Shown piece after piece: positions 9,254-36,018 of a stretch of DNA of 40,864 bases; within the stretch, counting starts at the first letter, position 1, and every line of letters starts with the position of its first letter. The position numbers and the translations under genes were made by a program. The notes beneath the pieces were generated by a model that was given only the letters and a program-made list of their open reading frames with translations, ran no database searches and was not told where the DNA came from. The stretch is from an uncultured Verrucomicrobiota bacterium (GTDB lineage: Bacteria > Verrucomicrobiota > Verrucomicrobiia > Methylacidiphilales > Verrucolacustridaceae): assembly GCA_903956835.1 (NCBI GenBank), contig CAJBOM010000065.1:1-40864 (forward strand), given 5' to 3'.

Positions 9254-9943
9254 TCAATAAGCTAGCTCGGGTCCAGTGCCCTTCCAAAATCGGTTGGTCA
9301 CACTGGCTCTACAACTATCGAATACGGTCATGGGCACACGTCCAACATGCCCATCGCAGTAACCCACATTCACAAACTCTTTGTGCCTCTTTTTTAGAGC
9401 TGTAATCCGTGATGCTTTGCTACCTGTTACGGTGTTCTCTACAATCGTCCAGTGCTCCTCAAAATCCATCGTTAGTGCTGTTGCACTTGGATACATGATA
9501 CGAGCCATTTTCACACCACTCATATACCCATTCTGGCCGTAACTAACGCCCATGTAGGGTCCATAGACCCCATTGCTGACCGTCCCGTATTTGTCCGCAG
9601 GACAGACCAGAATTTTCGTGCCTTTATTTGTTCCGCCAAGGTACGGGATAATCGACATAACATACGAGGTACCCCAATTCGCATCATTTTGAGGAAATTC
9701 CCCGTCATTATCCGCTGCGCAGCTAAGTGAAGCAGCCCCGATCTGTTGCAGATGTCCCACGCACGCCCCTTGGTCCGCCGAGGCGCGAACTCGCGCCAGG
9801 GCCCCCAAAGACAAGCCAGCGAGCAGACCAATGATCGTGATCACGACCAGCAATTCCACCAAGGTAAACCCAGACCGAGCCAACCCAGTCCACACGGAAT
9901 CCACGCGACTGGAACGATCTCCATCCTCATCGCAGATTTTCAC
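9254..9943 (-). CDS. Type II secretion-type pseudopilin (prepilin N-terminal motif, C-terminal DGHV)
   Basis: 'SGFTLVELLVVITIIGLLAGLSLGALARVR' class III signal; 'VGYCDGHVGRVP' near the C terminus; GTG start overlapping the upstream stop by 4 bp (GTGA). Confidence 0.85.
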   Translation of the reverse strand: MKICDEDGDRSSRVDSVWTGLARSGFTLVELLVVITIIGLLAGLSLGALARVRASADQGACVGHLQQIGAASLSCAADNDGEFPQNDANWGTSYVMSIIPYLGGTNKGTKILVCPADKYGTVSNGVYGPYMGVSYGQNGYMSGVKMARIMYPSATALTMDFEEHWTIVENTVTGSKASRITALKKRHKEFVNVGYCDGHVGRVPMTVFDSCRASVTNRFWKGTGPELAY

Positions 9944-11895
9944 GGTTTTTTCTTTTTAGCTGGAGGGGTGTACTGCAATACGGCTGATTCTTGAGGTGAT
10001 TTACCCAAGAAATCACCAATGGTGGCGTGCCACTGCCTCATCCCATACTCAATGGTGATGGCCAGTAATCCCTCATCCAAAGCAAAGGTGCTCTTCTGGG
10101 TATTGAGCATTTCAATCCGCTTTTGGCCTAAATCCCATGCACGGAGAAGCCACTCGTCTTTTTCCGCCAAGGTATAAGGGAAGGTCTGCTGTTGAAGTTT
10201 TTCAAAAAAATCTCGTGAGACATCGAAATCGGGTACCGCCGTAACCTTCCTCGGTGCACGAGCCGTTGCCTCCCACTCAAACGCTTCCATGGGAAAGCCT
10301 GTTCTCCCCAATTTAGCATAGAGCCCCAGGAGCTCCGACATAAGGGAGGTGTACTCGCAACCCACCCGCAGAAAGGAGATTCTTTTTTGCAGTTCAAGAT
10401 CAGTGCCCGCTGCCTTTTGCGCTTCGTCAAGGCAGAGTCCAGCCCGTGTCAGCTGTTCCGGGGAAAACATTTTAGGGATCGCGTTAAGGATAACGACGTA
10501 GCGGCCATCGATATCCAGCTTGCGCCAACTTTCGCGGGTAGCCTGGAGAAACACCTCGTGATACCGACGCACGGGATCAGCCGCCACCCCAAAGGCACTG
10601 TAAAACTCCTTCTCTAAATCACCGACTTTCCGATCCGGATCCCAAAGAAGATGGGTCACGACATAGTAGTTGAGCGCCATGTTCGAAAAGTTTTTTCCCG
10701 TTTCCCCATAAGCCCCGATCATTCCAGCCTTTCTTGCTTCGGTAATCGTCGTGGCGATTTCTTCAGGATAGAGAAATGGAAGATCCATCCAGTAATGGGT
10801 GCCCCAATATTCGCGCATGATAATTTTCACTCCCTTGGTTTTCCAAGAGCGAACGAAATCTCGGTATTCCTGAGCTCCCTTTTCCGAAAGGAGCATGGTC
10901 GCATAGGTTGTCATCGAGAGGTACACGTTGTCGGGCAGGGTCGGAATTTTGCTCGGAGGTTGCCGACCCACGGTGTAGGCAAACGTGCCGATCCCCTTTT
11001 TCGGTCTCTCCTTTTTCATCCGCAGTGCCATATCATTGACAAAGTCCCAATAGGCGTCGCCCGTAGTGCCCTTGGCCTGACAAAGAGGGCATTCGCAGAA
11101 TCCGTATCCATCGTTGGCTGAAACTGAGACAATATCCAAGCCTGATGTGTCCGCCGCTTCTAGAAGATTTTTAAAGAATTCGTCCCGGAGTTCAGGTTTC
11201 GATTCACAGAGTTGGGCAGGATTTCTTTTTCCACCGACCAAAGCGAACCAGTCGGGGTGAGCCGAAAAGTAAGTCTCCTTTGGAATCATATGGGACCAAG
11301 CGTGACCAAAGTTGGCCTTCAACTGATCCCCTTGGCGAGTTCGCCGCACCCAACGGGCCAGTTCTGGTTTCAGCTCAGCCCAGAAGCGGGCGTAGCCGAA
11401 TTTTAATAACCGCCGTTTGAATTCAGGAGTCCCGCCCTCCTTGATGGGGGGGAGCACAAGTTGCGGGCAGACGGGTATGACCTCGCCACTGGCTCCTGGC
11501 CACAACCAGCGAACCCCGCAATATTTCTCCAGGAAAACCGAAACGGCGTGACCCACCCCTTGGGCATCGCCCCTTAGGCAAACCCCTTGGTCATTAGATT
11601 GTAGAGCCCATGTTTCCTTAGGCACTTCTCCCTCCAGTTGAAAAAGAAAAGCTAACCCCGCCCCAGTATCTTCGGCGACGATGGGCAGGGATCGTCCGGT
11701 TGCTTTTTGTAGATGGTACTGCAGGTCTTCTGCAGATTGTTGGAGCGTACCACTAGCTCCCTTGGCCATCACAATTTGATCGAAGTCAGCCAGATTCTGG
11801 GAAGCGGCACCTGCCTGGGAAACCCCCAGTAAAGCAGTGGCTTGGATAAGGCGAAAGAGCGTTACTTTACAAACGGTGGATGTTTTTAAAAACAA
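9940..11895 (-). CDS. Secreted DUF4838-domain protein (putative glycoside-hydrolase-like, GH20b/GH67N-like N-terminal domain)
   Basis: N-terminal 'SAEDLQYHLQKATGRSLPIV...GHAVSVFLEKYCGVRWLWPGASGEVIP'; core 'NDGYGFCECPLCQ...REYWGTHYWMDLPFL'; clear paralogue of 19542-21563. Confidence 0.8.
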   Translation of the reverse strand: MFLKTSTVCKVTLFRLIQATALLGVSQAGAASQNLADFDQIVMAKGASGTLQQSAEDLQYHLQKATGRSLPIVAEDTGAGLAFLFQLEGEVPKETWALQSNDQGVCLRGDAQGVGHAVSVFLEKYCGVRWLWPGASGEVIPVCPQLVLPPIKEGGTPEFKRRLLKFGYARFWAELKPELARWVRRTRQGDQLKANFGHAWSHMIPKETYFSAHPDWFALVGGKRNPAQLCESKPELRDEFFKNLLEAADTSGLDIVSVSANDGYGFCECPLCQAKGTTGDAYWDFVNDMALRMKKERPKKGIGTFAYTVGRQPPSKIPTLPDNVYLSMTTYATMLLSEKGAQEYRDFVRSWKTKGVKIIMREYWGTHYWMDLPFLYPEEIATTITEARKAGMIGAYGETGKNFSNMALNYYVVTHLLWDPDRKVGDLEKEFYSAFGVAADPVRRYHEVFLQATRESWRKLDIDGRYVVILNAIPKMFSPEQLTRAGLCLDEAQKAAGTDLELQKRISFLRVGCEYTSLMSELLGLYAKLGRTGFPMEAFEWEATARAPRKVTAVPDFDVSRDFFEKLQQQTFPYTLAEKDEWLLRAWDLGQKRIEMLNTQKSTFALDEGLLAITIEYGMRQWHATIGDFLGKSPQESAVLQYTPPAKKKKP

Positions 11896-11928
11896 GCTAA
11901 GAACCTCTTTCTGTTCTGTGTCCCAGCG

Positions 11929-12696
11929 TTAGCCATCCTTGGCCGTCGCTGCCTGGATGATGATATTGCCGAATTTAACAAAAGGTGTTTTCACTCCATC
12001 GCTACTTCCTTCCGCATAGATCCCGACGGCCGTCACTCCCGACAGCTTGGGTTTAAGTTCGGCGGAACCGATTTTGTCCAAACTGCTGGCAGGATCGTAT
12101 GGATACCATTGAAGGGAAGACGGGTCGGAAATGGCCACAGGGAAACGTCGGGTGCCAGAGGAAATACCCAGCTCGGAGGAGATAAGATATTGCGAACCCA
12201 ACTGGACCACCAGACGCGTAGAAACCACGATGCCGCTTCCTCCCCAAAAGTTAAAAGAAATCGGAGTCTTGGCATTCAGGGTCACTTCCCCTGTCTTCAA
12301 GGCAAGAAAATCCTCTTGTTTCCATAAAACAAGTAGACGGACCTTGCCAGTAGGGTCGTGCGCAGACGCAGAGAAATAATCCGGTTCAGAAGACTTACCA
12401 CCATCAGCGATTTTGCAGGGACCCAGCCCACCAGTCCCCGTGGCACTCGCTCCCCCGTAGAATTTTGAACTCGGCAGAGCCGTGTTGTAATGGGCCGTGG
12501 GAGAGAGAAAGTTTTGATCAGAAAAAGTCATCGTGGGGGCGCCATCGACCCAACCCGTAAAACATTGCCAGTTGCTGGCCGTATAAATGGGAGAATTAAA
12601 ATTAACGATCACGGGACCCGCCGTACCTAGAGATGGCAGTGAACCTAGGAGCCCGGTGAGAAAAACCCGTCTCCATAAGCAGAGGTTAGGCTTCAC
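11929..12696 (-). CDS. Secreted protein of unknown function, predicted beta-rich
   Basis: Signal-like N terminus 'LCLWRRVFLTGLLGSLPSLGTAG'; GTGA overlap with the upstream gene at 12693-12696. Confidence 0.6.
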   Translation of the reverse strand: MKPNLCLWRRVFLTGLLGSLPSLGTAGPVIVNFNSPIYTASNWQCFTGWVDGAPTMTFSDQNFLSPTAHYNTALPSSKFYGGASATGTGGLGPCKIADGGKSSEPDYFSASAHDPTGKVRLLVLWKQEDFLALKTGEVTLNAKTPISFNFWGGSGIVVSTRLVVQLGSQYLISSELGISSGTRRFPVAISDPSSLQWYPYDPASSLDKIGSAELKPKLSGVTAVGIYAEGSSDGVKTPFVKFGNIIIQAATAKDG

Positions 12697-19541: not shown

Positions 19542-21563
19542 ATGTCGAAAATAAAAAATAGCCTGTTTTTATGCCTATCTGTCGTAATAGCAGGAGATAT
19601 TTCTGCGCATGCCGCTTCTGGGTTGATCATAAAACAGGGGCAAGCTTTCAAGATTGTTTACCCTGAGAAAGCCCTGCTTGTGGAAAAAACTTCTGCTGAA
19701 GAACTTTCTCAATATATTCGGCAGTCCACCGGGGCACGGACAGAAGTACTCTCAGAAAATAACCTAGAAACAAAGGATGCTGCCGACGCCTATATCGGGC
19801 AGTGCAGTTTCACGAAAGAACAAGGTTCTTATGTAAAGAGCTTCAAACAGGAAGAGTTCATGATTACGGCAAGTGAAGGCAAGCTCTTCATCTACGGAGA
19901 TGACGGAACAGGGAGTCCCTTTGCCCAGAATACAAGAACTGGAACGCTTTTCGGAGTGTATGATTTTCTAGAAAAAGAGGTTGGGGTGGCCTGGATCTGG
20001 CCAGGTAAGAGCGGTGAAGATGTGCCGAATCGAAAAACATTTCAGGTTGCTTCGTTTTCCAGGAGGGACAGTCCACGCCTCTGCTACCGCGGATTTAAGT
20101 TCTCCGCTGCATATAAGGAATCAAAAGAGTTTAAAACTGATCTTAGTTATTGGTTTAAGCGGATGAAACTGAGTTGGATACCTCAGGCCTGGTTTGGTCA
20201 CAGTTGGGGAAACTATATGGTGAAAACAGGAATGGATAAAAAACATCCTGAATGGCTGGCATTATGGGGAGGAACAAGGAGGAAACCGCAGTACTGCACA
20301 TCCAACAAGGACTTTCGGGATTATATTGTGGACCAATGTCTGCACAATCCAATCAACAAGGACAAATGGATTGTTTCGGTATCACCGAACGATGGCTATG
20401 GCTTCTGTGAGTGCGACAAATGCCGAGCCCTTGACCCCGCTAACACTGATTATACATCAGATATCCCGAATTTATCCAACCGCCATTGGGATTACGCTAA
20501 TTATGTGGCCCAAGAGGTAAAGAAACAAAGGCCTGGCCTGAATGTCGGGATGTTGTCCTACACCGCCTATAGTAGTCCTCCTACGAATATCGCAACGATG
20601 GAAGATAATCTTTTTGTCTCCCTGTGCTTCTCCGCGTCCTATTGCGTTCTTCCGGAAAAGAAAAAGCGTTTTTATGAGGACATTCTCTTATGGAAATCAA
20701 AAGGTGCAAAGTTCGTTATAAATGAATATTGGGGGATGCATTACTGGTTAGATTTGCCCTACATATTCACCAAACAAATATCCGAGTTCATGCCACTTAT
20801 CTATAAGAATGGCCTGATTGGAATGGGCGGGGAAGCGCAGAAGAATTTCTCTACCCAAGGACCCAACTACTATCTCGTCTGCCATTTAATGTGGAACCCG
20901 GAAGACAATTCCGAACAGATCCTCCATCGTTACTACGAGGCTTTCGGTCCTGCGGCGAAGTATATCAGGAGTTATTACGACACCTTTGAGACCTCCATTC
21001 TGGAAAACCAGAAATGCGATTTCGCGTACCTACATTTAATCAATTCATGGCCTGAAATATTTCCGCCAGCGACAATCACCAAGGCCGAGGAATGTCTCAA
21101 GAAGGCTCAAGATGCCGTGCAAGCCAGCCCGATTCATGCCGAGCGCGTGAAACTAGTTGCCATCGGCTTTGAATACACCAAAGACATGGTTGAACTACTT
21201 CGCATCTACAGAACCCTGGGAAGAGCTGGGGTTCCCCTTTGGTTCTTCGGTTATCAAGGGGCCTTAGCAGAGATGAGTTACTGGAAGCATTTACCAGAAA
21301 TGCCTGCTTCCTGGACCCAGTTCTGGAAACAGCATCCCGACGAACCGATCTCCCAGGTAGAGAAGTTGAAGTTACTGAGGCGCGCCTATGACCTCGGAAA
21401 TGAACGAGAAAGAATAGTAAATGAATATGCGGATCGGCCCATCGTATCACTGGGAATGTTTAACCACTTCAAAACAAATGGACTCTCCCCATGGCAACAG
21501 ACCATAAAACAGGAGCTTGAAAAAGAAGGCATTACTGTTGGGGCAGATCCGAAGCAGAAATAA
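19542..21563 (+). CDS. Secreted DUF4838-domain protein (second copy)
   Basis: Signal peptide 'LFLCLSVVIAGDISAHA'; 'SAEELSQYIRQSTGARTEV'; 'NDGYGFCECDKCRALD...NEYWGMHYWLDLPYIF...NYYLVCHLMWNPEDN'. Confidence 0.8.
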   Translation: MSKIKNSLFLCLSVVIAGDISAHAASGLIIKQGQAFKIVYPEKALLVEKTSAEELSQYIRQSTGARTEVLSENNLETKDAADAYIGQCSFTKEQGSYVKSFKQEEFMITASEGKLFIYGDDGTGSPFAQNTRTGTLFGVYDFLEKEVGVAWIWPGKSGEDVPNRKTFQVASFSRRDSPRLCYRGFKFSAAYKESKEFKTDLSYWFKRMKLSWIPQAWFGHSWGNYMVKTGMDKKHPEWLALWGGTRRKPQYCTSNKDFRDYIVDQCLHNPINKDKWIVSVSPNDGYGFCECDKCRALDPANTDYTSDIPNLSNRHWDYANYVAQEVKKQRPGLNVGMLSYTAYSSPPTNIATMEDNLFVSLCFSASYCVLPEKKKRFYEDILLWKSKGAKFVINEYWGMHYWLDLPYIFTKQISEFMPLIYKNGLIGMGGEAQKNFSTQGPNYYLVCHLMWNPEDNSEQILHRYYEAFGPAAKYIRSYYDTFETSILENQKCDFAYLHLINSWPEIFPPATITKAEECLKKAQDAVQASPIHAERVKLVAIGFEYTKDMVELLRIYRTLGRAGVPLWFFGYQGALAEMSYWKHLPEMPASWTQFWKQHPDEPISQVEKLKLLRRAYDLGNERERIVNEYADRPIVSLGMFNHFKTNGLSPWQQTIKQELEKEGITVGADPKQK

Positions 21564-24275: not shown

Positions 24276-25394
24276 TTATTTCTCCGAGGACTTGCTCTTC
24301 TGGGAGAGTCCGGCCGCATATCGGGTCATGTCCCCCAAGAGAGCCTGCACATCTTCTTTTTGGGTTTGCCAAGAGCACATGAACCGTGCCCCGCCCCCGA
24401 TGAAGTGATAGTATTTCCAACCCTGTTGTTGGAGGAATAAATCCATCGAGTCTGGCAGATAAAGGAAAACGGCGTTTGATTCAACGGGGTGCAGCAACCG
24501 GACTCCAGGGATTTTCACTGCCCGCTCTGCGAAAAAGCTGGCGAGCCCGAGTGCCGACCGTAGATACTTTTCGTAGGCGGAGTTCTCTAACATGGAAATC
24601 CAAGGTGCCGTCAGATAGCGCATTTTGGAGGCAAGCTGACCCGCTTGTTTGCATCGATAGTCAAATTCCTTTGCCAGTTCGGGATCAAAGAATACCACCG
24701 CCTCGGATAAGCCAATCCCGGCTTTTGTCCCGCCCAAGCAGAGCACATCAACCCCTGCTTTCCAGCTGAGTTCCTTGGGGCTCAGCCCAGAAGAAACCAC
24801 CGCAAGGAGAAACCTCGCCCCATCCATATGGACACGCATGCCGTGTTTTTTAGCGACGGTGCAAAGTTGCTTGAGCTCCTCGGGTTGGTAGCGGGTTCCC
24901 AGCTCTGTCGGTTGCGACAAGGAAAGAACCCGGGGTCGGGGATAATGGATATCCTGTCGTTTTGTGATAAGTGCCTCCACCGCCGCCGGGGCAAGCTTTC
25001 CTCCAGCACCCGTTCCGAGAAGGAGTTTCGTCCCGTTGCTAAAGAATTCTGGCGCCCCGCATTCATCCGTCTCAACATGGGAGGTGTCGTGGGCAATGAC
25101 GCTGTGGTACGATTGACAGAGAGAAGCCAGCGAAAGTGAGTTGGCTGCCGTTCCGTTGAAAACGAAAAACACTTCGCAATTGGTTTCGAAGTAGGTCCGG
25201 AAAAGATCACTAGCTTTTTCTGTGTGGCGATCCATGCCGTAGGATGCCTCAAATCCTTCATTAGCTTTCCCCATGGCCGTCCAAGCTTCCGGACAAATTC
25301 CGGCAGTGTTGTCGCTCGCAAACTGGTACTTCGCTTGCACCTCCCCTAAAGAGATGGAGGCAGAATGGGCGGGACGGCGGGATGCGTGCTTCAT
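24276..25394 (-). CDS. Threonine-aldolase/beta-eliminating-lyase-family PLP enzyme
   Basis: Start refined to MKHASRRPAHSASISLGEVQAKYQFASDNTAG; 'VFFVFNGTAANSLSLASL', 'MRVHMDGARFLLAV', 'VLCLGGTKAGIGLSEAVVFF' (PLP Lys). Confidence 0.85.
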   Translation of the reverse strand: MKHASRRPAHSASISLGEVQAKYQFASDNTAGICPEAWTAMGKANEGFEASYGMDRHTEKASDLFRTYFETNCEVFFVFNGTAANSLSLASLCQSYHSVIAHDTSHVETDECGAPEFFSNGTKLLLGTGAGGKLAPAAVEALITKRQDIHYPRPRVLSLSQPTELGTRYQPEELKQLCTVAKKHGMRVHMDGARFLLAVVSSGLSPKELSWKAGVDVLCLGGTKAGIGLSEAVVFFDPELAKEFDYRCKQAGQLASKMRYLTAPWISMLENSAYEKYLRSALGLASFFAERAVKIPGVRLLHPVESNAVFLYLPDSMDLFLQQQGWKYYHFIGGGARFMCSWQTQKEDVQALLGDMTRYAAGLSQKSKSSEK

Positions 25395-25422
25395 ACTTTC
25401 AAGGAATACGCCTGAGTTTTTT

Positions 25423-26805
25423 CTAAAGTGCCGGACGATAGCATTCACCCAACAGATCTCGGATCTGGTAAGATCGCCCATCCTGAGCCGATCGCCAGAT
25501 CGCTTCCCCCGTGGCAATGGCCAAAGCTCCCGCATAACTGTCGGAGGAGAGCTTCAGTCGGAGACTTTTATCGTTCGGGCCGAGAAATAGGTCCCTGCGA
25601 ATCACTGGATCCGCACCACCATGCCCCCCCGGGGCCACCGGCACGTCGTACTCTTCGCGACCACCAAACAACGGCCAAACGACGATCTGATCCTTGCTGG
25701 GTTCCCCCGAGCCGGCTCCCGTAGGATCGGTATAGTAACGATGACTGACCTCAAGGCGTCCGCGAGTTCCATTGATGGCCAAGGTGTACCCTTCCCAGGG
25801 TGCGGAGAAGTTGATTGAATAAGCCAGCGAGGCACCGTTCCGATACCGTATGACGGAAGAATACGTGTCCTCAATATCGATGGCTTCGTCGTAGATATAA
25901 TTATCCAGCGGATACTGTTCGGCATACGGTAACTCGAGTTTATCCCAACCGGGTCGAACGCGCTCCGAGGGTTTATCCCCTCGCGGAGCATAGTGGGTTT
26001 GAAAATAGGGGCACGCTTGCCGAACTTCCGTAAGAGTAAGCTTACGACCGTCTGGAGATTTGGGGCGGTGTGCTCCGTGGGGCCCGTAATAATTTCGCGC
26101 ACCAAAGGCGAAGACCGTTTCTGGAGGAGAATCGATCAGCCAACTGATTAAATCAAGGTGGTGAACGGATTTGTGGATGCTCAACCCGCCTGATTTCGAC
26201 CGCTCACGATTCCATCGATAAAAGTAACTTGCCCCATGAAAAGTATCGAGGTTGTAAGCATATTCTATGTTGGTGGGCCGCCCTATCTTGTTTTCCAGCA
26301 GAAGCTCTTTGATGCGACAATTAATGTCGGTGTAGCGACAATTGTGGGCAACCACCAGAGAGCCTCGGCTTTTCTTTTCCGCAGCGAGCACTTGACGGAT
26401 TTGCTCAGAGTTAATCACAGCGGGCTTTTCTGCGATTACCCGCAAATCATTTCGCAAACCGGCTAAAATATATTCGGCGTGAGTAAAGTCGGGTCCAGCA
26501 ACCAACAGAACATCGGGATGAGTCTCGCGAATCATGGCCTCGACCCCTTGGGTCGGCGTGAAACTTGGAATCGAGAGCCCCAGTTTCTTCTGAAATTGCT
26601 TAATCCGCTCCAGATCTAGATCGAGAATACCCACCACTTCGGCTTGATCCCGGAAATCGCCCGCATCCTGCGTATCGGCTCTGCCCAGAAGGGGAAGCAA
26701 AAAATGATAAATACCCCGCACACTCAAACCGCAAATTGCATAGCGAGTTTTCCTACTAGGAGTCATTTCCGGCGAGTGCTGGGCAGTGGGGTGAACAAGA
26801 CTCAT
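25423..26805 (-). CDS. Gfo/Idh/MocA-family oxidoreductase (copy 5)
   Basis: 'YAICGLSVRGIYHFLLPLL', 'LRVIAEKPAVINSEQIRQVLAAEKK', 'SGGLSIHKSVHHLDLISWLID'. Confidence 0.85.
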   Translation of the reverse strand: MSLVHPTAQHSPEMTPSRKTRYAICGLSVRGIYHFLLPLLGRADTQDAGDFRDQAEVVGILDLDLERIKQFQKKLGLSIPSFTPTQGVEAMIRETHPDVLLVAGPDFTHAEYILAGLRNDLRVIAEKPAVINSEQIRQVLAAEKKSRGSLVVAHNCRYTDINCRIKELLLENKIGRPTNIEYAYNLDTFHGASYFYRWNRERSKSGGLSIHKSVHHLDLISWLIDSPPETVFAFGARNYYGPHGAHRPKSPDGRKLTLTEVRQACPYFQTHYAPRGDKPSERVRPGWDKLELPYAEQYPLDNYIYDEAIDIEDTYSSVIRYRNGASLAYSINFSAPWEGYTLAINGTRGRLEVSHRYYTDPTGAGSGEPSKDQIVVWPLFGGREEYDVPVAPGGHGGADPVIRRDLFLGPNDKSLRLKLSSDSYAGALAIATGEAIWRSAQDGRSYQIRDLLGECYRPAL

Positions 26806-26902: not shown

Positions 26903-29900
26903 TCATCGGGATGACACTTGCTGGGCTTCCACATAGTCCCCAGGCACCTTTTTAGGCACATCCATATCCCTCTCCACGGAAACTAGGTTGCGTAGGTAGA
27001 TTTCCGGACGTGCTACCGCGGCATACCGATTGAGGTGCAGCGTTTTTTCAGGGATTTCAACGATCAGTTTTTCGAGCAGAAGGGGATAGTGAACGATCCC
27101 ATCTCCATCTGAAAACCATTGGCTATTGGCCGGCCAGTGATACCCCTCCCCTGGGTATTGCCCCGGTAGCGGAAAGCCGAGATAACGCCACCCATCGAAA
27201 TTGATCCGGCTCAACCCAAAAGGATCATCCGTATTGAAATCGGCTATCTTTCCTGGTTTGTAGTTTTTCAGGAGATCCGGGGTCAGCCAATCTCCCATCC
27301 ATTCCGAGGCCCCCTTGGCTGCCGCTCCAATTGAGACCCACCGCTGCCCTGAAGCATCCCGCAGTGAAAAGATCACCCTAGACCAGCTGGAATTGCCATT
27401 CACCCACAACCCTATTTCGGCAGGCTTCCCAGGTAATTCCATTCTCTTTTGAAATGCGAGCTCCGCATACATCGGCATGACGCTTTTTCCTTCTTTGACC
27501 GGTTTGGGCGAGATGCGCAGAGCTGGCCCTTCCCCGTCGATTTTTGAAACAATGGAAAATTCAAAGTTACCTTTCCGCCTAGGCGTCAACGGATTGTACA
27601 TTTCCAGCTCCGGACTGCGTTCGGGGACGACTTTCCATTTTTCAAGGGAAACAAGTGAATCAATTTTGCTGATTCGCCCTACTGGCTGATCCTCATACTT
27701 CGAGAGCCCCAGGACCACCGAGGCGACACGACCTCCCTTTGGTAAAATTAAGTAGGCTGGTTCGGGTGAGGCATCCAGACGGATCGTCCCCTGCAAAACC
27801 GGGACCTCTTTCTCAAGACCATTCGCCTCCACGATCCGCGCTTTGCTTGCCCCATCAAGAAGCAGAGTAAAATCCCGCGTTCCACGTACGACCCAAAAGG
27901 GGAAAACGGTAGTGCCGTCCTTTTTGGAAAACGACATGAGGTAGGCACTGTCGCTACCCGTATCCAAAAAGTCCTCGTAATGGGCGCCGTCCAGCACCCT
28001 CGTTAAGGTGGCTAAACTGATCGCCACAGGCTTGGGTGCTTTTTCCGGGGCACGTTCGAAGAGACCGATCCCACCCCAGTTGCTGTGGTAGTAACTGTCC
28101 CCCGCGTCGAGGAGAGTCCCAGCTCGAATCTGGGGAATTCGCCAGGCCATCGAGTGGAGAATGTGCCGAATGAGATACTTGGCCTGAGTCTCCAAACTGA
28201 GGTTGCCAGGATTCGTCGATGGATAAATGGTCTCGTGACACTGGGTGACACTTTTTTCACGGTATCCGTAGGCATCTAACAGCTGGCGGTCCATCCAAAG
28301 ACTGGAGTTGTTTCCGATCGGATCGGGAGGTTGGGTCTCGGGAAGGCGACTAAAGGCAGGATTCTCGTTCCCTCCCGAATCAAAAAGATCGGCCGGAAAT
28401 CCATGCCGATATAATTCTTCCCGCACCACCATTGGACCATTCCCCAGACTGATTCTCATTTCCGGATGTTTTTCCCGGAATCTTTTCGCAGTGCTCAAAG
28501 CAACTTCCTGCAACAAGGTGAACCGTTTTTGCTCTTCTGGGTTCAGGACGTACGGCGGACGATCGTGGAAAAAATCCGGAGTCCGGGTTGCGTGCTGGGC
28601 ACTGATAGCATCCTCATGAAAAATCATAAGGTGAGGAAGTAGATCCGGGGATTCCTCCAGCCGCTGCGCATAAGCAGCCAGAGAGTTGGTCCATCGTTTT
28701 GTGGTGACGGAAAATTCCCGCCCGATCCGAACACCAGCCCGTTTCCGGATTTCCGCCGAGGCAAAATCCATCCCATAGGTCAGCCCCAGTTTCCGGTAGA
28801 GATCCCCGATGACCTCAGGATCGCACGGGGTAAAGTGGCCCGAGTTCATATCTCCGGTTCCCACCGAACCTTCGGATACAAAATGTCTTTGATTTGGGGG
28901 CAGAACTCCAAAGGAAGTGCGCCGGGTCAGTAGGTGATCCCCCTTCCCGCCCGACAGGATAGCCGAGAGCTTAACATACCCGAGCGGAACCCCGCTTAGC
29001 CTGATCGATTCTCGAACGCTTTGTCCAGGCCCGATCTCCCCTCGGAGCGAAGCCTCTGGCGAAACTCCGGTTTTCAAAGTCAGGGAATACTTCTGAGGTT
29101 CACGGGTGATGTTTTTCAAAATGACCCTGAATTCAGGTTCAGCAGGTTGTTCAAATAAGTTCCCACCCGCAGAAGAACGAAGCTCCATCTGGATCGGGCT
29201 TCGTTCCAAGGTAAGACCGGCAATATGGACACTGCTGGTTCGTCCCAAGGGCACCCACTGGAATCGGTTTGGATCGGGACTCCGCCTCGCCAGACGAATC
29301 TCTTTTGTCATTTCAATGTCGAGAATTCCATCAACGATGTCCTGAGCCAATGCTTCAGTGAACGGAATGCGAATGACGCAGAGCCGCTTGTCGGGCTCGA
29401 TCGTTTTTTTTGTTCTCGGGATCGTTGCAGAGAAGTCCTTTCGAAAGACTTGGCTTTTACTCGACGCCCCCTTCATCCGACGACCCACCCGGAGAGTCAG
29501 TTCGTTTGTCGTGGAGTCATCCTCGTCGGCCTCAGCCAACACATAGGCGGCGCAATAGTCCGCACGTGGAACTTGCACAATTGGCGTATACGGATCGCCG
29601 ATGTAGTAAGCCCCAGCATCATAGGCCTGCCCGTAACTACTGGGATCCCGCCTCCAGTCTAGCCAATGTGCCTTGGCTAGAGAAACCTGACTGTGACCAC
29701 GATCCCACAATTCGAACGGGACCCCCCCGACCATCACTTTTTCCGAGACAGACTTCGTATCTTGGGTTCCTTGGATCAGGTGAATAAGCTCCACTGGCAA
29801 AAAGTTCTCCCCCTCGGCGAACGGGGCCTGCACTTCCAGAAAGCTTTTCATGTCCGCCCCCGGATGCAGGAAAAACCGGATGGGGCCGGGCTTTTCCCAG

Positions 29901-30412
29901 GCCCGCGTGTGGATTAATTGTCCTTCCAGCCAGACGGCGAGATGGCCCGGTTCGCGGCGAACCCTGCCGTGGAGTACTTTTCCCCGCCAGGTTTGCACAG
30001 GGATTTTGTTTTCCTCCAGAGTGGCGAGGGTTTTGAGATCTTTGGGGGCGGGCCAAAAGGCGAGCTCAGTCTGGCCTGCCGGCTCCCATTTTTGATTCTC
30101 TAGGGACCGGAACTCGGATCTCACCACCAACGTCGTTCCCTCCTTGTCCGGAACGATTTTAATTCGGAACGCCGGCACTCCAAGATCAGCCGCCTGAAAT
30201 TCCAGCCGGACGGGCCCGGCTTGGACTCCCATTTTCAATGTAAAGCGCGCGGTGGTCGTGACCTCATCCCCAAGCTCGACCTCGCTGGAAACCGGCGAGG
30301 TCTCAGCCCAGACTTGGGCGAAAGACAAAAAAACAAACGCCGGCAAAACACTGACCAATTTTCTAGCTTGGCCTAAGCTCTGCGAGAACAAAAAAGGAGG
30401 AAGAGTCCTCAT
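26903..30412 (-). CDS. Very large (1169 aa) secreted protein of unknown function, putative TIM-barrel glycosidase-like core
   Basis: Signal-like N terminus; central 'LTYGMDFASAEIRKRAG...LPHLMIFHEDAI...ISLGNGPMV...VTQCHETIYPSTNPG...HSMAWRIPQIRAGTLLDAGDSYYHSNWG'; beta-sandwich-like flanks. ATGA overlap with upstream pseudopilin. Confidence 0.65.
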   Translation of the reverse strand: MRTLPPFLFSQSLGQARKLVSVLPAFVFLSFAQVWAETSPVSSEVELGDEVTTTARFTLKMGVQAGPVRLEFQAADLGVPAFRIKIVPDKEGTTLVVRSEFRSLENQKWEPAGQTELAFWPAPKDLKTLATLEENKIPVQTWRGKVLHGRVRREPGHLAVWLEGQLIHTRAWEKPGPIRFFLHPGADMKSFLEVQAPFAEGENFLPVELIHLIQGTQDTKSVSEKVMVGGVPFELWDRGHSQVSLAKAHWLDWRRDPSSYGQAYDAGAYYIGDPYTPIVQVPRADYCAAYVLAEADEDDSTTNELTLRVGRRMKGASSKSQVFRKDFSATIPRTKKTIEPDKRLCVIRIPFTEALAQDIVDGILDIEMTKEIRLARRSPDPNRFQWVPLGRTSSVHIAGLTLERSPIQMELRSSAGGNLFEQPAEPEFRVILKNITREPQKYSLTLKTGVSPEASLRGEIGPGQSVRESIRLSGVPLGYVKLSAILSGGKGDHLLTRRTSFGVLPPNQRHFVSEGSVGTGDMNSGHFTPCDPEVIGDLYRKLGLTYGMDFASAEIRKRAGVRIGREFSVTTKRWTNSLAAYAQRLEESPDLLPHLMIFHEDAISAQHATRTPDFFHDRPPYVLNPEEQKRFTLLQEVALSTAKRFREKHPEMRISLGNGPMVVREELYRHGFPADLFDSGGNENPAFSRLPETQPPDPIGNNSSLWMDRQLLDAYGYREKSVTQCHETIYPSTNPGNLSLETQAKYLIRHILHSMAWRIPQIRAGTLLDAGDSYYHSNWGGIGLFERAPEKAPKPVAISLATLTRVLDGAHYEDFLDTGSDSAYLMSFSKKDGTTVFPFWVVRGTRDFTLLLDGASKARIVEANGLEKEVPVLQGTIRLDASPEPAYLILPKGGRVASVVLGLSKYEDQPVGRISKIDSLVSLEKWKVVPERSPELEMYNPLTPRRKGNFEFSIVSKIDGEGPALRISPKPVKEGKSVMPMYAELAFQKRMELPGKPAEIGLWVNGNSSWSRVIFSLRDASGQRWVSIGAAAKGASEWMGDWLTPDLLKNYKPGKIADFNTDDPFGLSRINFDGWRYLGFPLPGQYPGEGYHWPANSQWFSDGDGIVHYPLLLEKLIVEIPEKTLHLNRYAAVARPEIYLRNLVSVERDMDVPKKVPGDYVEAQQVSSR

Positions 30413-31128
30413 GGCGCAGACAACTTTCCAGCTTTCATCAGCCCAAATTGAGCCGCGTCATAAAAGTAGCCGTCGTTCTTGCCGTCCCCATAAACTGGAG
30501 AAGGTTTTTTCCAATCGTTTCCTACCGAAGGTACCAACTGGGCATGGCCATCGAGGAAAAACATATTTAAACCCCGTGCCTCCTTCGATCCATGGTATTG
30601 GGGAGGACGTGTCACTCCCTCATTCCCAACTTCCCCCGAACTGTTTCCCCAAATAGTTTGATTTAGGTTTTTTCCGCTATCGAAACTCTCCCAATACCAC
30701 ATCTCTGAAACTAGAACTATCCTAGATGAAGGAACTGGGATGCTCAGTGCCTTGGGATAATTTTTCGCCAAACCCGCATTGATTCCATAGCAGAATCGAC
30801 CAGCCGTTGTGAATTTAGCCGGCTTTGTAGGACAATAAAGGGGGCCAGGAATGTACTCTGGGATCAACCACTGTTGGGTCAATATATCTCCGGGCGGGAA
30901 CCCTTGATTTTCAGCGATACATGACAATGTGGCCAGCCCGTAGGTTCTCACGTTCCCGAGACAAGTCGCCGATTTGCCCTTATCCATCATCTGTTTGACC
31001 CCTGGAGCCACTAAGCCAACCAAAATTCCAATGATGACGATGGTCACCAAAATCTCCACCAAGGTAAAGGCCGTCGCTGACCTTTTCGGAAGGAAGACTT
31101 TTATTTTGCTTTGGCGAAAGAAATTCAT
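30409..31128 (-). CDS. Type II secretion-type pseudopilin
   Basis: 'ATAFTLVEILVTIVIIGILVGLVAPGVKQMMDKGKS'; C-terminal 'LNMFFLDGHAQLVPS'; ATGA overlaps on both sides. Confidence 0.85.
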   Translation of the reverse strand: MNFFRQSKIKVFLPKRSATAFTLVEILVTIVIIGILVGLVAPGVKQMMDKGKSATCLGNVRTYGLATLSCIAENQGFPPGDILTQQWLIPEYIPGPLYCPTKPAKFTTAGRFCYGINAGLAKNYPKALSIPVPSSRIVLVSEMWYWESFDSGKNLNQTIWGNSSGEVGNEGVTRPPQYHGSKEARGLNMFFLDGHAQLVPSVGNDWKKPSPVYGDGKNDGYFYDAAQFGLMKAGKLSAP

Positions 31129-33665
31129 CGGGCAGGGCTTTCGGAAGTTTTTGCCACCTCAGAAGGAATCAGCAGTTCTTGAGGAGTTCTGGAGAGGAAC
31201 GGGGGCACAGTCATAAAAAGTTTTTTCCCGGACGCGTTCTCCAATCGAAACACCCGCACCCGTGGGGACGGACGGATAGGAATGTCAAAAAATTCCGGAG
31301 CCGCGAGTTTTTTGAATTCATAAATGATCTGGTCGGTCTCGTTCCGAATGACACCCGCGGCGGTTTCGGAATAACCGGATACCCGGTCGCTTCCCGCAGG
31401 CACCACAAAACAGCCGGAATAGCGGCCGCGCAGGTTCGCGGCATCCTCCACCCCCGAAGGCACGGCGATCCGCTCACCCTCAGGCCAGCCGATCTCAGTC
31501 TCATTGAATCCGTCGTCCACCATCAATCGATAAAGTCCATCCTCCTTGGCCGTGAGGAAGATTTCATGCCAGTTCTGGTCGGCAGGAGCCTCCGCTTGGG
31601 CAAGGATCGCCTCGGGGTTGCCCTCCCCCTCGGCCACAGGATCCCGCGCGGGCCTCAAGGTCACCTGAATGGCCCGTTTTTCCCCGTGTCCCCTCCATCC
31701 ACCGGAAACTTTGAGGTTTAATTTCGCGCCCGGATTTTTCGCCCACCACCAAAGAGTCTGGGACTTGGAAAAACGGAAGTTGGCGCCCCCCGTGCCTGGT
31801 GCATCAGGGAAAGCCAAAGGGACAAGGTTTTCGGAAAACCGAGACGGCAGGAACGGCAGAAGCTTATTGGCTTGGACTCCAACCCTAACCAAAGCCTCCA
31901 ACTCTTCCGTGGTAGGAACCGGCGTCAATTTCATATCGACGGGGATGACCCCATTCCAGAGTGCTCGTTGCTCCTTCTTGTATCGGTCAGCCAATTCGGG
32001 GCGGCGGGTCACCACATGATAGTCAAACATGGGCATCTCCCGGCAGGCAAAGGTGTGCCTCTCCAACTCCTGAAAAGCCAGGGCCCGAACTTTTCCCTCG
32101 GTGGACTGGTACTGGTGCATCAACTCGACGAATCGCGTGTAAGCAGCCAATTGCAAAATCCTCTCTCGAATCACCGTCCGGGATTCAGCCGCCAGAGCCT
32201 GCTCCAAACAACGGTACATTCTCGCCACAAGATCCTCCGACAAGAGGGGTTTGCTGGATCCATCCAGCAGATTGTAGAACCGGCGCATCGGGTCTTGGGC
32301 AGATCCGAAGCAGTTGATCGTGAATTCATTCAGTAAAGCTGAGGCAGTCGGCGCTAACGCAGGATTCCAGAGGGATCTGGCAGCCAAGTAATAACCCAAT
32401 CCGTTGGGAGCCCAACCGGATCCGGCTTCACCGACCCAGTAACGTGCACCCGCCTCGTGATATTTCAAGATCGAGTCACGCACAGTGGAGAGATTCGAGG
32501 CGGGGGACCGCCCAGGCAGGTTGAGCTCTATCTTGGAGTTATCGAGGTATTCATAGATCCCCACGTCGGCTCCTTTTTCTTTCCACGCCCTAACCAATTC
32601 AAGAGGGGTATGTCCTCCCCTGATAAAAGTGGTGGCGACTAGAACAATGGCTCCAGGTTGGAGCTGCAACGACGGAGCCTGTGACTGCATATGGTAGGCC
32701 AAAAAAGCAAGTTTTGTGGGAAGCTTTCTTCGATTGAATTCCGCCAATATATAATTGGCAAGATAGACCAGTTGATCCGACGGGGTTCCTATGGCAGACG
32801 TCGTTGGCCAACCTCCTCCATCGGTGGGGCTAAGCCCCAACGTATCCGGTGGTGGATCTTTGTGGACCTGTTCAAGCGCGCTCCTTCGCACCGACTCACA
32901 CAGTTCGGCTTTGTCCACTATCGGCTTAAGACCGCTTCCCTTCGGATTCTCAGGAGTGAACCATTCGGGATGGTTTTTCAACGCTTCCCCACTGGGTCGC
33001 AGGAGTCCGACGGTTTCAAGGACGAAGCCACCTGGAACACGGTTTTTTTTCTCCCAATCTGAAAAGGCTTTCCGAGCCACCTTGCGGTTGGTTTGAAAAA
33101 AAGACCGGGTGAGGAAAGCTGGCGTTTCCCAGCGATCCACATCAACGACAAGTTGAGGAGTTTCCGGAATGAATTCCCAAACAGGTGTTGGAAAATACTG
33201 ACGATAGCCCAAGGAATGGAGCAGGTCGAAAACTCCATCCCGCACCGCTACAGGGGTCTCTCCAACAATCCAAAGGGAGCCACGCTCACTGAGCAATCGA
33301 TATCCTTCCCTCCCTTCCGGCCCCAAGGGGCTTGGCCGGCTGTTGAGGATCTCAGGAAAATCGGCGCGCGTGCCGAGGAAGATTGCAGGCCCAGGAGACG
33401 AGCCTGAGACCACCTCAAACGAGGAGGCGCATATTTTCCCAAGAATCAAAGCAAGATATTGACCCGCCTCAGTTAGGATAGGGTCTGAATCCTTCGGAAG
33501 GGAGATGGCGAGAAATGTTTTGCCATCTGCAGCCAACCGCACCGGCGCAGCTTCACTTGGCCGCAAAGTCCAGCCAAAACAAAGAACACTTACCGCGATA
33601 CAACGCGCCAGAAATCCAAGCGAAAGATCAAAGATGCGAGAGAATTTATGGCGGAGACTTGGCAT
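31125..33665 (-). CDS. Secreted DUF4838-like protein (third, divergent copy)
   Basis: N-terminal domain 'EAGQYLALILGKICASSFEVV...LGYRQYFPTPVWEFIPETPQL'; 'HPEWFTPENP', 'GARYWVGEAGSGWAPNGLGYYLAARSLWNPAL', parallel to the two other copies. Confidence 0.65.
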   Translation of the reverse strand: MPSLRHKFSRIFDLSLGFLARCIAVSVLCFGWTLRPSEAAPVRLAADGKTFLAISLPKDSDPILTEAGQYLALILGKICASSFEVVSGSSPGPAIFLGTRADFPEILNSRPSPLGPEGREGYRLLSERGSLWIVGETPVAVRDGVFDLLHSLGYRQYFPTPVWEFIPETPQLVVDVDRWETPAFLTRSFFQTNRKVARKAFSDWEKKNRVPGGFVLETVGLLRPSGEALKNHPEWFTPENPKGSGLKPIVDKAELCESVRRSALEQVHKDPPPDTLGLSPTDGGGWPTTSAIGTPSDQLVYLANYILAEFNRRKLPTKLAFLAYHMQSQAPSLQLQPGAIVLVATTFIRGGHTPLELVRAWKEKGADVGIYEYLDNSKIELNLPGRSPASNLSTVRDSILKYHEAGARYWVGEAGSGWAPNGLGYYLAARSLWNPALAPTASALLNEFTINCFGSAQDPMRRFYNLLDGSSKPLLSEDLVARMYRCLEQALAAESRTVIRERILQLAAYTRFVELMHQYQSTEGKVRALAFQELERHTFACREMPMFDYHVVTRRPELADRYKKEQRALWNGVIPVDMKLTPVPTTEELEALVRVGVQANKLLPFLPSRFSENLVPLAFPDAPGTGGANFRFSKSQTLWWWAKNPGAKLNLKVSGGWRGHGEKRAIQVTLRPARDPVAEGEGNPEAILAQAEAPADQNWHEIFLTAKEDGLYRLMVDDGFNETEIGWPEGERIAVPSGVEDAANLRGRYSGCFVVPAGSDRVSGYSETAAGVIRNETDQIIYEFKKLAAPEFFDIPIRPSPRVRVFRLENASGKKLFMTVPPFLSRTPQELLIPSEVAKTSESPAR

Positions 33666-34467
33666 CCCTCTTTCCCTTGCTTACAAATTCCTTCAATCCT
33701 TTTTGATAAAGTTCGCGCATCTCCGCATCCGTCAGGACCGAGCCCCCGAAAAACCCCAGATCATCCACATGGGTCTTGGTCGGCAAGTTGCCCATAGCCT
33801 TCAGGCTGGGCTTGGTCACCGGATCTTCCTCCATAGACCCAATCTTGGTGGCGGGTGTTGATTTGGTTCCTTCCAGAACCCCATTTTTGTAAAACGTCAC
33901 GACCCCGCGGTCAAAAGACATTCCGAGATGGATCCATTCGCCGTTTTCAATTGCAACAGCCTGACTCACCGCCGATCCGTCCTTGGTGGCGAAGCGCAAC
34001 CCCAAACGCGGATGACGGACAAAAGTAAACAAGCCGGAATCTCCCCCGCTCTTCACCGAATCACGACGAAATAGAGTCGCCGATTCCCCTCCGCCTTCAG
34101 GGGGCAAAAGGATCCAGCAGACGATGCTGAACCGCTCCAAAGATCCTCGCAATGAGGCATACGGCTTGGCCAAGAGAGATTGATGGATAGATCCAGCCGT
34201 ATCCCCCTCAGTGGGCACGAGGATTTCCAAACTCCCATTGCCGAATTTTTTAACGTCCGCGTCGATCCTCACATCCTGGGGAACCCGATATAGAAGATCA
34301 TACCCATGCCCGCTCGAGTCCTTAGCCCAACCCGAAGCTTCCGTCTCATCAAAATAAAGGAAGATATCCATGGCAGATTGCTGCCACGCCTGCGCGGAGT
34401 CTAGGCAACCCCAAAGACCAAAAAGGATCGCCAGTCCAAGTCTTAGCCGAAATTGTTTTTTCTGCAT
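33646..34467 (-). CDS. Secreted LamG/concanavalin A-like domain protein
   Basis: Start refined to MQKKQFRLRLGLAILFGLWGCLDSAQA; 'YFDETEASGWAKDSSGHGYDL', 'FSIVCWILLPP', 'EWIHLGMSFDRGVVTFYKNGVLEGTK', 'HVDDLGFFGGSVLTDAEMRELYQKG'. Confidence 0.8.
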   Translation of the reverse strand: MQKKQFRLRLGLAILFGLWGCLDSAQAWQQSAMDIFLYFDETEASGWAKDSSGHGYDLLYRVPQDVRIDADVKKFGNGSLEILVPTEGDTAGSIHQSLLAKPYASLRGSLERFSIVCWILLPPEGGGESATLFRRDSVKSGGDSGLFTFVRHPRLGLRFATKDGSAVSQAVAIENGEWIHLGMSFDRGVVTFYKNGVLEGTKSTPATKIGSMEEDPVTKPSLKAMGNLPTKTHVDDLGFFGGSVLTDAEMRELYQKGLKEFVSKGKRDAKSPP

Positions 34468-34484: not shown

Positions 34485-35633
34485 CTAAAAAGGAATCACG
34501 TCCTGCCCACAGGCACGAGTTTCTGCAGCCACCTCTTCCCCGCCCATCGGGTTGGAACGGCCACAAGAGGTGCGTAAAACCAGCTCCGATTGAAAAATTT
34601 TCGAAGCCCGAAAGGACGTTTTCTTCTGAATTCGGTCTTTCAAGAGCTTCACGCCCGCAGCGCATGACTGGGCCACATCACTCCGGATGGTCGTAAGTCC
34701 AAACATCGGATATTTTCCAAACTCGTCGTCGTCCGCGCCAGTCACCGCCAGATCCCTGGGAATGCTCAATCCTCGTTCGGTCGCCGCATTAAAGACCCCG
34801 AAAGCTCCCTGATCATTCGAGCACATAATCGCATCGGGCAAAATGTCCGTGCTAAAAAGCCGCTGACTAAACGCATAATTGGCAGCGGCAAAATCATAGC
34901 TAAAACTCTTTGTCTTCAACTGAACCACGATGCCCACCGTGGATCCATGCGTTTGCTGTCGAAAATCAGCCCATCCCTGAAAAAATTCATCCTCCTTGAG
35001 TTGGGGACAGGGTTCACCCAAGGCCTTCTCAAGGCCATCGATTCGTTCCTTGACGGGTCTTGCTTGCGATTCCCCAATCGTCAATAAAAGACATTGATGG
35101 CCAACCTTTTGAAGATGTAGTCCCATTTCACAAAAGGCAGAGCGCATGTCATTGGAAACCGCGACAATGTTCAGCCGATCATCTCCGTAGACTGTAACCA
35201 CAGGAATGCCGGCGCGATTTAGAATTTCAATATATTCGGACCCAAAAGCCTCCATCATGTTGGAGATAATAACTCCTTCGACACGGGCTTGGATCATTTC
35301 ATTGAGGACACGCTCAATACTTCCACCGTGCCACTGAATATCGACCACCATGTAATCGTAACCTGCCGCATTGATGGCTTGCGGGAGCTCAAACGCCACT
35401 TTTCGCGCGATTTCCAGAGCCAATCCAAAATGAATAATTCCCAGTAGATTACTTCGCCCTCTTTGGACTGCCCGAGATGCGCGATTCGGTTGATAGCCGC
35501 ATTTCTTGGCCGTCTGTACAACTAACTCTCTTGTCTTCTTGCTATAACGAAGACTCGCAGAACCCCCTAAAATGCTTGCCACTGTGGATGGTGAAAGCCC
35601 TAGTTTTTCACCGATTTCTTTCTGAGTAATCAT
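34485..35633 (-). CDS. LacI-family transcriptional regulator
   Basis: 'MITQKEIGEKLGLSPSTVASILGGSASLRYSKKTRELVVQTAKKCGYQPNRASRAVQRGRSNLLGIIHFG'; C-terminal effector domain 'DAIMCSNDQGAFGVFNAATERGLSIPRDLAVTGADD'. Confidence 0.9.
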   Translation of the reverse strand: MITQKEIGEKLGLSPSTVASILGGSASLRYSKKTRELVVQTAKKCGYQPNRASRAVQRGRSNLLGIIHFGLALEIARKVAFELPQAINAAGYDYMVVDIQWHGGSIERVLNEMIQARVEGVIISNMMEAFGSEYIEILNRAGIPVVTVYGDDRLNIVAVSNDMRSAFCEMGLHLQKVGHQCLLLTIGESQARPVKERIDGLEKALGEPCPQLKEDEFFQGWADFRQQTHGSTVGIVVQLKTKSFSYDFAAANYAFSQRLFSTDILPDAIMCSNDQGAFGVFNAATERGLSIPRDLAVTGADDDEFGKYPMFGLTTIRSDVAQSCAAGVKLLKDRIQKKTSFRASKIFQSELVLRTSCGRSNPMGGEEVAAETRACGQDVIPF

Positions 35634-35650: not shown

Positions 35651-35670
35651 ATGTAGAGACGATACTACGA
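35651..35670. promoter_or_regulatory. Candidate LacI-family operator (ATGTAG AGA CG ATA CTACGA)
   Basis: Core GTAG-N3-CG-N3-CTAC identical to 443-462; 18 bp upstream of the LacI start codon at 35633. Confidence 0.5.
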
Positions 35671-36018
35671 AATAACAATTTTTTGTCAATCGCACCTATT
35701 GTATGATTCTTCATTTAAGCTTTTGGCGGAATAAATTATATTCGTAACCTCTTGAAAGGAATCACTTTTCCGACCCACCGGATGAGCTAACCTGAGTTCT
35801 AATCATTGGACCCAGGGCATGAAAAGAGACGATCGAGAAGATACGCGCCATGAAGTGCTGCCATCTTTACTCTTGAGACGAGTCCTTAACCCGTCTACTT
35901 AAGAATTAGTGGACGATCGTATTCTGCCTAGCATCAGCAAGTAGCTCGCCGACTCTATCCTGACAAAGTTTCCCGCAATGATATCTCTTTCTCAGCACAG
36001 TCCATCCGCTCAACACCC

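Follow-up and report, generated by a model that had tools for sequence, protein, structure and literature searches.

The selection of cargo by the T2SS is still poorly understood. Minor pseudopilins of Pseudomonas are reported to assemble into a complex at the tip, to which T2SS substrates bind (PMC6211770). The pilin that we describe here shares with the T2SS pseudopilins (GspG/H/I/J/K; PulG, Xcp) a prepilin cleavage/methylation motif with Glu+5, a long hydrophobic N-helix and, at low confidence in its model, C-terminal strands; it differs in that pilins of its type are encoded away from the T2SS cluster, inside enzyme operons and in many copies. The arrangement of a pseudopilin in a glycan operon is already known from Verruconatronum alginivorum, where an alginate-induced operon contains a pulG-like pseudopilin, pgaptmp_000050, with 67 paralogues (2026 paper, PMC13274419). 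Our locus resembles that system in having an orphan pseudopilin within a probable glycan-degradation operon of the Verrucomicrobiota, with many paralogues per genome, but where our locus has DUF4838 and GH39-like proteins, V. alginivorum has PL29/PL15/PL39 lyases together with an SSF symporter as the partners.

The locus lies in a 40,864-nt stretch of contig CAJBOM010000065.1, the whole of which is referred to here as the window. Three minus-strand open reading frames follow one another head to tail at 31125-33665, 30409-31128 and 26903-30412. A sequence-only reading of this DNA had given these coordinates and ATGA overlaps at 31125-31128 and 30409-30412; both proved exact, and the PF16126 and PF07963 matches of the first two proteins were above cut-off. 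On the reverse complement, the junctions on either side of the pilin gene read CCCGATGAATTT and CGCCATGAGGAC, each of them an ATGA. The features of the locus, all on the minus strand, are as follows.

35662..35689, minus strand: sigma-70-like promoter candidate upstream of lacI, TTGACA-16-TAGTAT (motif scan)
34485..35633, minus strand: LacI-family transcriptional regulator, first gene of the probable operon (Pfam Peripla_BP_3, 2.2e-20)
33646..34467, minus strand: LamG/concanavalin-like exported protein, 273 aa, with an internal start MQKKQF (PF13385, E 1.6e-8)
31125..33665, minus strand: predicted DUF4838 (GH163-related) exported protein, 846 aa (PF16126 above cut-off; signal-like N-terminus)
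31125..31128, minus strand: ATGA overlap of the DUF4838 stop and the pilin start (junction sequence)
30409..31128, minus strand: orphan pseudopilin, 239 aa, prepilin motif SATA/FTLVE (PF07963 above cut-off)
30409..30412, minus strand: ATGA overlap of the pilin stop and the start of the 1169-aa gene (junction sequence)
26903..30412, minus strand: 1169-aa exported protein, candidate GH39-like (clan GH-A) glycosidase (model, Foldseek, invariant Glu pair)
25423..26805, minus strand: GFO/IDH/MocA oxidoreductase, possible extra operon member (Pfam; 97-nt gap)
24276..25535, minus strand: beta-eliminating lyase family protein, possible extra operon member (PF01212, 4.1e-51)

The LacI HTH domain of the regulator did not reach its cut-off of 27 bits (score, 20.4). 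An alternative start of the LamG gene at 34467 gives a signal-like N-terminus and is likely the true start. Given that only 17 nt separate this start from the lacI stop, that the end of the LamG gene and the start of DUF4838 share 20 nt, that the two junctions of the pilin gene are ATGA overlaps and that the whole set is located downstream of LacI, the arrangement lacI-LamG-DUF4838-pilin-1169-aa likely constitutes a five-gene operon, perhaps extended by the oxidoreductase and the beta-eliminating lyase. The number of promoter-like sites in the region did not exceed that in shuffled sequences, and neither SusC nor SusD was found among the operon genes scanned with Pfam.

The focal pilin matched the N_methyl family PF07963 at 24.0 bits (cut-off, 21.2), and its prepilin motif, Glu+5 and hydrophobic helix are the N-terminal signature of the pilin/pseudopilin superfamily. 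The F, L and E of FTLVE were invariant across 25 aligned pilins, and residue -1 is Ala, where the canonical residue is Gly. Its best NCBIfam match was GspG, a partial one: the equivalog model TIGR01710 scored 32.3 bits against a curated cut-off of 88.85 and covered the N-terminal third only. The AlphaFold (AF2) model consists of a long N-helix (residues 23 to 71) followed by C-terminal strands at low confidence, and with this C-terminal domain so modelled Foldseek returned no solved-structure match from the PDB. The protein is similar in length and layout to the H-X9-DG-CTERM family TIGR04294. The exact H-X9-DG is present in the pilin of a second, parallel pair in the window (pair 1), whereas the H...DGH near the C-terminus of the focal pilin has the spacing H-X13-DG; neither pilin matched TIGR04294 at E 0.01, and a single one of the 25 aligned pilins did.

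Membership of the focal 846-aa protein in DUF4838 is indicated by a PF16126 score of 53.3 bits (gathering cut-off, 26.6). Asp282, the sole invariant acidic residue among 25 aligned relatives, is kept in it. The family profile reached structure 6q63 at 1.8e-4, in an alignment limited to the N-terminal domain; we take 6q63 to be the structure of the Bacteroides thetaiotaomicron GlcNAc-beta-1,2-Man endo-enzyme (GH163). One DUF4838 protein has been annotated as GH163 (PMC9870897). From these sequence relationships, the focal protein is predicted to be a GH163-related exported protein. It shares the PF16126 domain with GH163 (6q63), but the CxCxxC cluster present after the conserved Asp of most relatives is absent from it. 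The nearest homologue of the focal protein (881 aa, genome G019) retains a similar Cys cluster near the residue-282 region and is one of two tandem DUF4838 genes (locus L026, 3696-8799) with no pilin nearby. Direct searches of the PDB with single sequences gave nothing meaningful, and the focal protein as a query found no relative in the named genomes. A further scan for DUF4838 relatives recovered only Clostridia, all without a pilin.

The third protein, of 1169 aa, matched no Pfam or NCBIfam family, and no glycosidase match in Pfam or NCBIfam was found across 21 members of its family, to a curated GH39 family or any other. Its AF2 model (pLDDT 74) contains a TIM barrel, and both Foldseek with this model (E 1.3e-16) and the profile search ranked the GH39 enzyme 5jvk first. 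Glu600 and Glu727 were invariant in 21 aligned family sequences and stand in the model directly after strands 594-597 and 721-724, which are barrel strands 4 and 7 in a numbering read from DSSP. The model thus appears to have the clan GH-A arrangement (a TIM barrel in which the acid/base Glu follows strand 4 and the nucleophile Glu follows strand 7), a likeness in fold and Glu positions to GH39 (Bacteroides cellulosilyticus 5jvk; PslG), from which the protein differs in having several hundred extra residues on each side of the barrel. These observations make it a candidate GH39-like glycosidase, with Glu600 and Glu727 as candidate catalytic residues. Homologues were present in 44 of the 388 sampled genomes of the phylum, the window genome counted, and a pilin lay within two genes at 7 of 20 loci of the family. 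At one of them (L158) DUF4838, the 1169-aa homologue and a pilin stand in a row; at another (L164) a GntR-like regulator overlaps the pilin, which is followed by the 1169-aa homologue.

The sequence-only reading had also claimed that the same gene order recurs at 9254-11895 with divergent sequences. This was borne out, with the same order and overlap and only 25% identity between the DUF4838 proteins and 25% between the pilins. The two genes of this pair are listed below.

9940..11895, minus strand: first DUF4838 of the parallel pair, 651 aa (PF16126, 142 bits)
9254..9943, minus strand: pseudopilin of the parallel pair, 229 aa, ATGA-coupled (PF07963, 27.7 bits)

A congener (G010) keeps the orthologous pair with an identical overlap, and the dN/dS of the pilin relative to this genome was 0.14, indicating purifying selection. 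Just upstream of the pair, at 11929-12696, is a gene for a 255-aa exported protein; another 255-aa exported protein of similar N-terminal layout is ATGA-coupled to a different pilin on contig C194 (locus L009, 9027-9794), and neither has a Pfam match.

The window genome (2.17 Mb) contains 5 DUF4838 genes and 18 N_methyl (pilin) genes. Overlap with a pilin gene is seen at three of the five DUF4838 genes, namely in both window pairs and in a pair on contig C124 (p ~5-7e-5 under random gene order); on C124, unlike in the window, the pilin comes first. Near the fourth DUF4838 gene (contig C166) a pilin is merely convergent, about 0.8 kb off. The fifth (window 19542-21563, plus strand), which is the third in the window, follows three oxidoreductase-like genes and has no pilin.

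DUF4838 was present in 187 of the 388 sampled genomes. Genome G097 carries 57 DUF4838 genes and 115 pilins, and 25 of the 57 had a same-strand pilin 0.7 to 1.9 kb upstream, against an expected 1.36 and a maximum of 9 in 2000 shuffles; at the same distance, no DUF4838 gene had an opposite-strand pilin. We also fetched 60 DUF4838 genes, the second batch being picked partly from families already showing pairs, and it is for this reason that the whole-genome test in G097 is the fair estimate. A same-strand pilin lay within 120 nt at 18 of 29 DUF4838 genes from families f29, f34 and f61 (f29 and f34 are presumably Lentisphaeria), and none lay within 200 nt at the 31 loci sampled from other families; since these 31 have none, DUF4838 export needs no adjacent pilin. 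The pairs occur across many genera, with gaps mostly between -10 and +60 nt. The compactness of the genome (~2.2 Mb) and the commonness of gene overlaps in it would suit an origin of the adjacency by chance or as a by-product of short intergenic distances. Permutation and binomial tests in two genomes of different classes, together with the empty opposite-strand control, rule this out for practical purposes, and we give it a vanishingly small probability. The pairing of DUF4838 with pilins is therefore well supported as a recurring functional association rather than a coincidence.

The sequence-only reading had described a conserved functional module. The recurring association stands, both in the window genome and across the phylum, and two narrower features of the module fall. 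It is not strictly DUF4838-specific, as other pilin partners are common: 8 of 14 orphan pilins in the window genome overlap a neighbouring gene for an exported or membrane protein by 4 to 10 nt, just 38 of the 115 pilins of G097 lead to DUF4838, and the downstream neighbours of the pilins of genome G067 (at least 150) are diverse, many with signal-like N-termini. Nor is the gene order fixed, the pilin coming first on C124 and at most loci elsewhere. An ATGA overlap joins a pilin, preceded by a beta-helix protein, to an SSF symporter gene on contig C99 of the window genome (G000; 10331-12675, locus L012), much as a pilin and a symporter are neighbours in the alginate operon of Verruconatronum; on contig C200 of the same genome (290-1255, locus L017), a PEP-CTERM protein adjoins an orphan pilin. 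In about 10 of 19 inspected loci, nearly all of them in other genomes, the gene immediately preceding the pilin was read from the sequence as a GntR/LacI-type regulator. Very similar LacI regulators stand directly upstream of pilin-DUF4838 pairs at L061 3873-4880 (G395) and L069 8190-9197 (G108). Given the diversity of partners and the upstream regulators, the recurring unit is therefore a regulator, a pseudopilin and exported enzymes.

Co-evolution of the two proteins had been proposed as a check on the module. Within G097, distances between pilins and between DUF4838 proteins did not correlate (Mantel r = 0.12, p = 0.12), in a test of low power with pilin domains near saturation; across genomes, with permutation within each genome, p was 0.046. 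As a control for power, the two halves of DUF4838 correlated at r = 0.81 and those of the pilin domain at just 0.28, and for the latter reason the Mantel test has little power. The undetected co-divergence, the many different partners and the variable gene order would all be expected if the pilin were a general, cargo-independent GspG-like shaft subunit, duplicated beside exported genes for co-expression and making no specific contact with its partners. Such redundancy is hard to square with genomes that carry at least 115-150 copies whose C-terminal domains have diverged strongly, the stop/start overlap coupling recurs, and the canonical set of T2SS pseudopilins stands apart on another contig; we consider a general shaft subunit improbable.

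That canonical set is on contig C16 of the window genome, where a T2SS gene set with GspF, GspK and pseudopilins lies separate from the pilins of the enzyme operons; secretin genes are present on three further contigs. Genes of T4P type were read from the sequence of contig C3, and they would provide a fiber for the main rival explanation, that the pilin acts at the surface or in the periplasm as a glycan-binding (adhesin-like) subunit on a T4P or pseudopilus and draws the polymer to the cell, being co-regulated with the enzymes for that substrate and having no role in their export. The pairing of pilins with transport genes, by ATGA on C99 and as the neighbours pgaptmp_000050/000051 (PMC13274419), is consistent with this, and a fast-diverging C-terminal domain fits a diversity of ligands. 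Against it, no carbohydrate-binding domain was recognised in the focal pilin by Pfam or NCBIfam, and its model has no structural match. An adhesin-like subunit is a possible though rather unlikely reading.

The best explanation, to which we give an about even chance of being right, is an operon-dedicated pseudopilin that serves the T2SS for the co-encoded glycan-degrading enzymes. It draws on the observed gene order, overlaps, pilin signature, T2SS genes and secretins, and phylum-wide non-random linkage. It would further entail co-transcription, incorporation into the pseudopilus and contact with cargo. A LacI-headed operon for the use of one particular glycan would export the LamG, DUF4838/GH163-like and GH39-like proteins, and the orphan GspG-like pseudopilin would be translated in coupling with both enzymes. 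Prepilin peptidase would most likely process the pseudopilin, the inner membrane would hold it, and small amounts may enter the T2SS pseudopilus, at the tip or in the shaft. There, the variable C-terminal domain could assist in loading, exposing or tethering the enzymes encoded beside it, or their glycan. Because translation appears to be coupled with that of the enzymes, a pseudopilin dedicated to loading, exposure or tethering is the most economical reading. Points against it are that co-divergence was not detected, that the model of the pilin C-terminal domain is of low confidence and without a structural match, that DUF4838 loci free of pilins exist and that position -1 is Ala.

No paper on DUF4838-pilin pairs was found in the literature searched, which did not extend to subscription journals. 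Nor did that literature yield the DUF4838 linkage statistics, the GH39-like partner family, the coupling by overlap to a range of partners or the layout of regulator, pilin and enzymes.

The above-chance recurrence across the phylum suggests that each enzyme set may receive its own pilus-like partner. Extended to the whole phylum, this leads to a tentative and rather doubtful picture of a combinatorial T2SS, in which ~15 to 200 pseudopilins would be exchanged on a common machine, each of them produced by one glycan-degradation operon and dedicated to it, so that the machine would be refitted for every substrate. Were every enzyme operon to supply a pseudopilin of its own, the 70 to 200 pilin genes without obvious use in some genomes of the phylum would be accounted for, hundreds of natural matched pilin-cargo pairs would be available for reading and testing the rules of selection, and the pilin would serve as a genomic marker for unannotated glycan-degradation operons, such as those of the unclassified GH39-like family.
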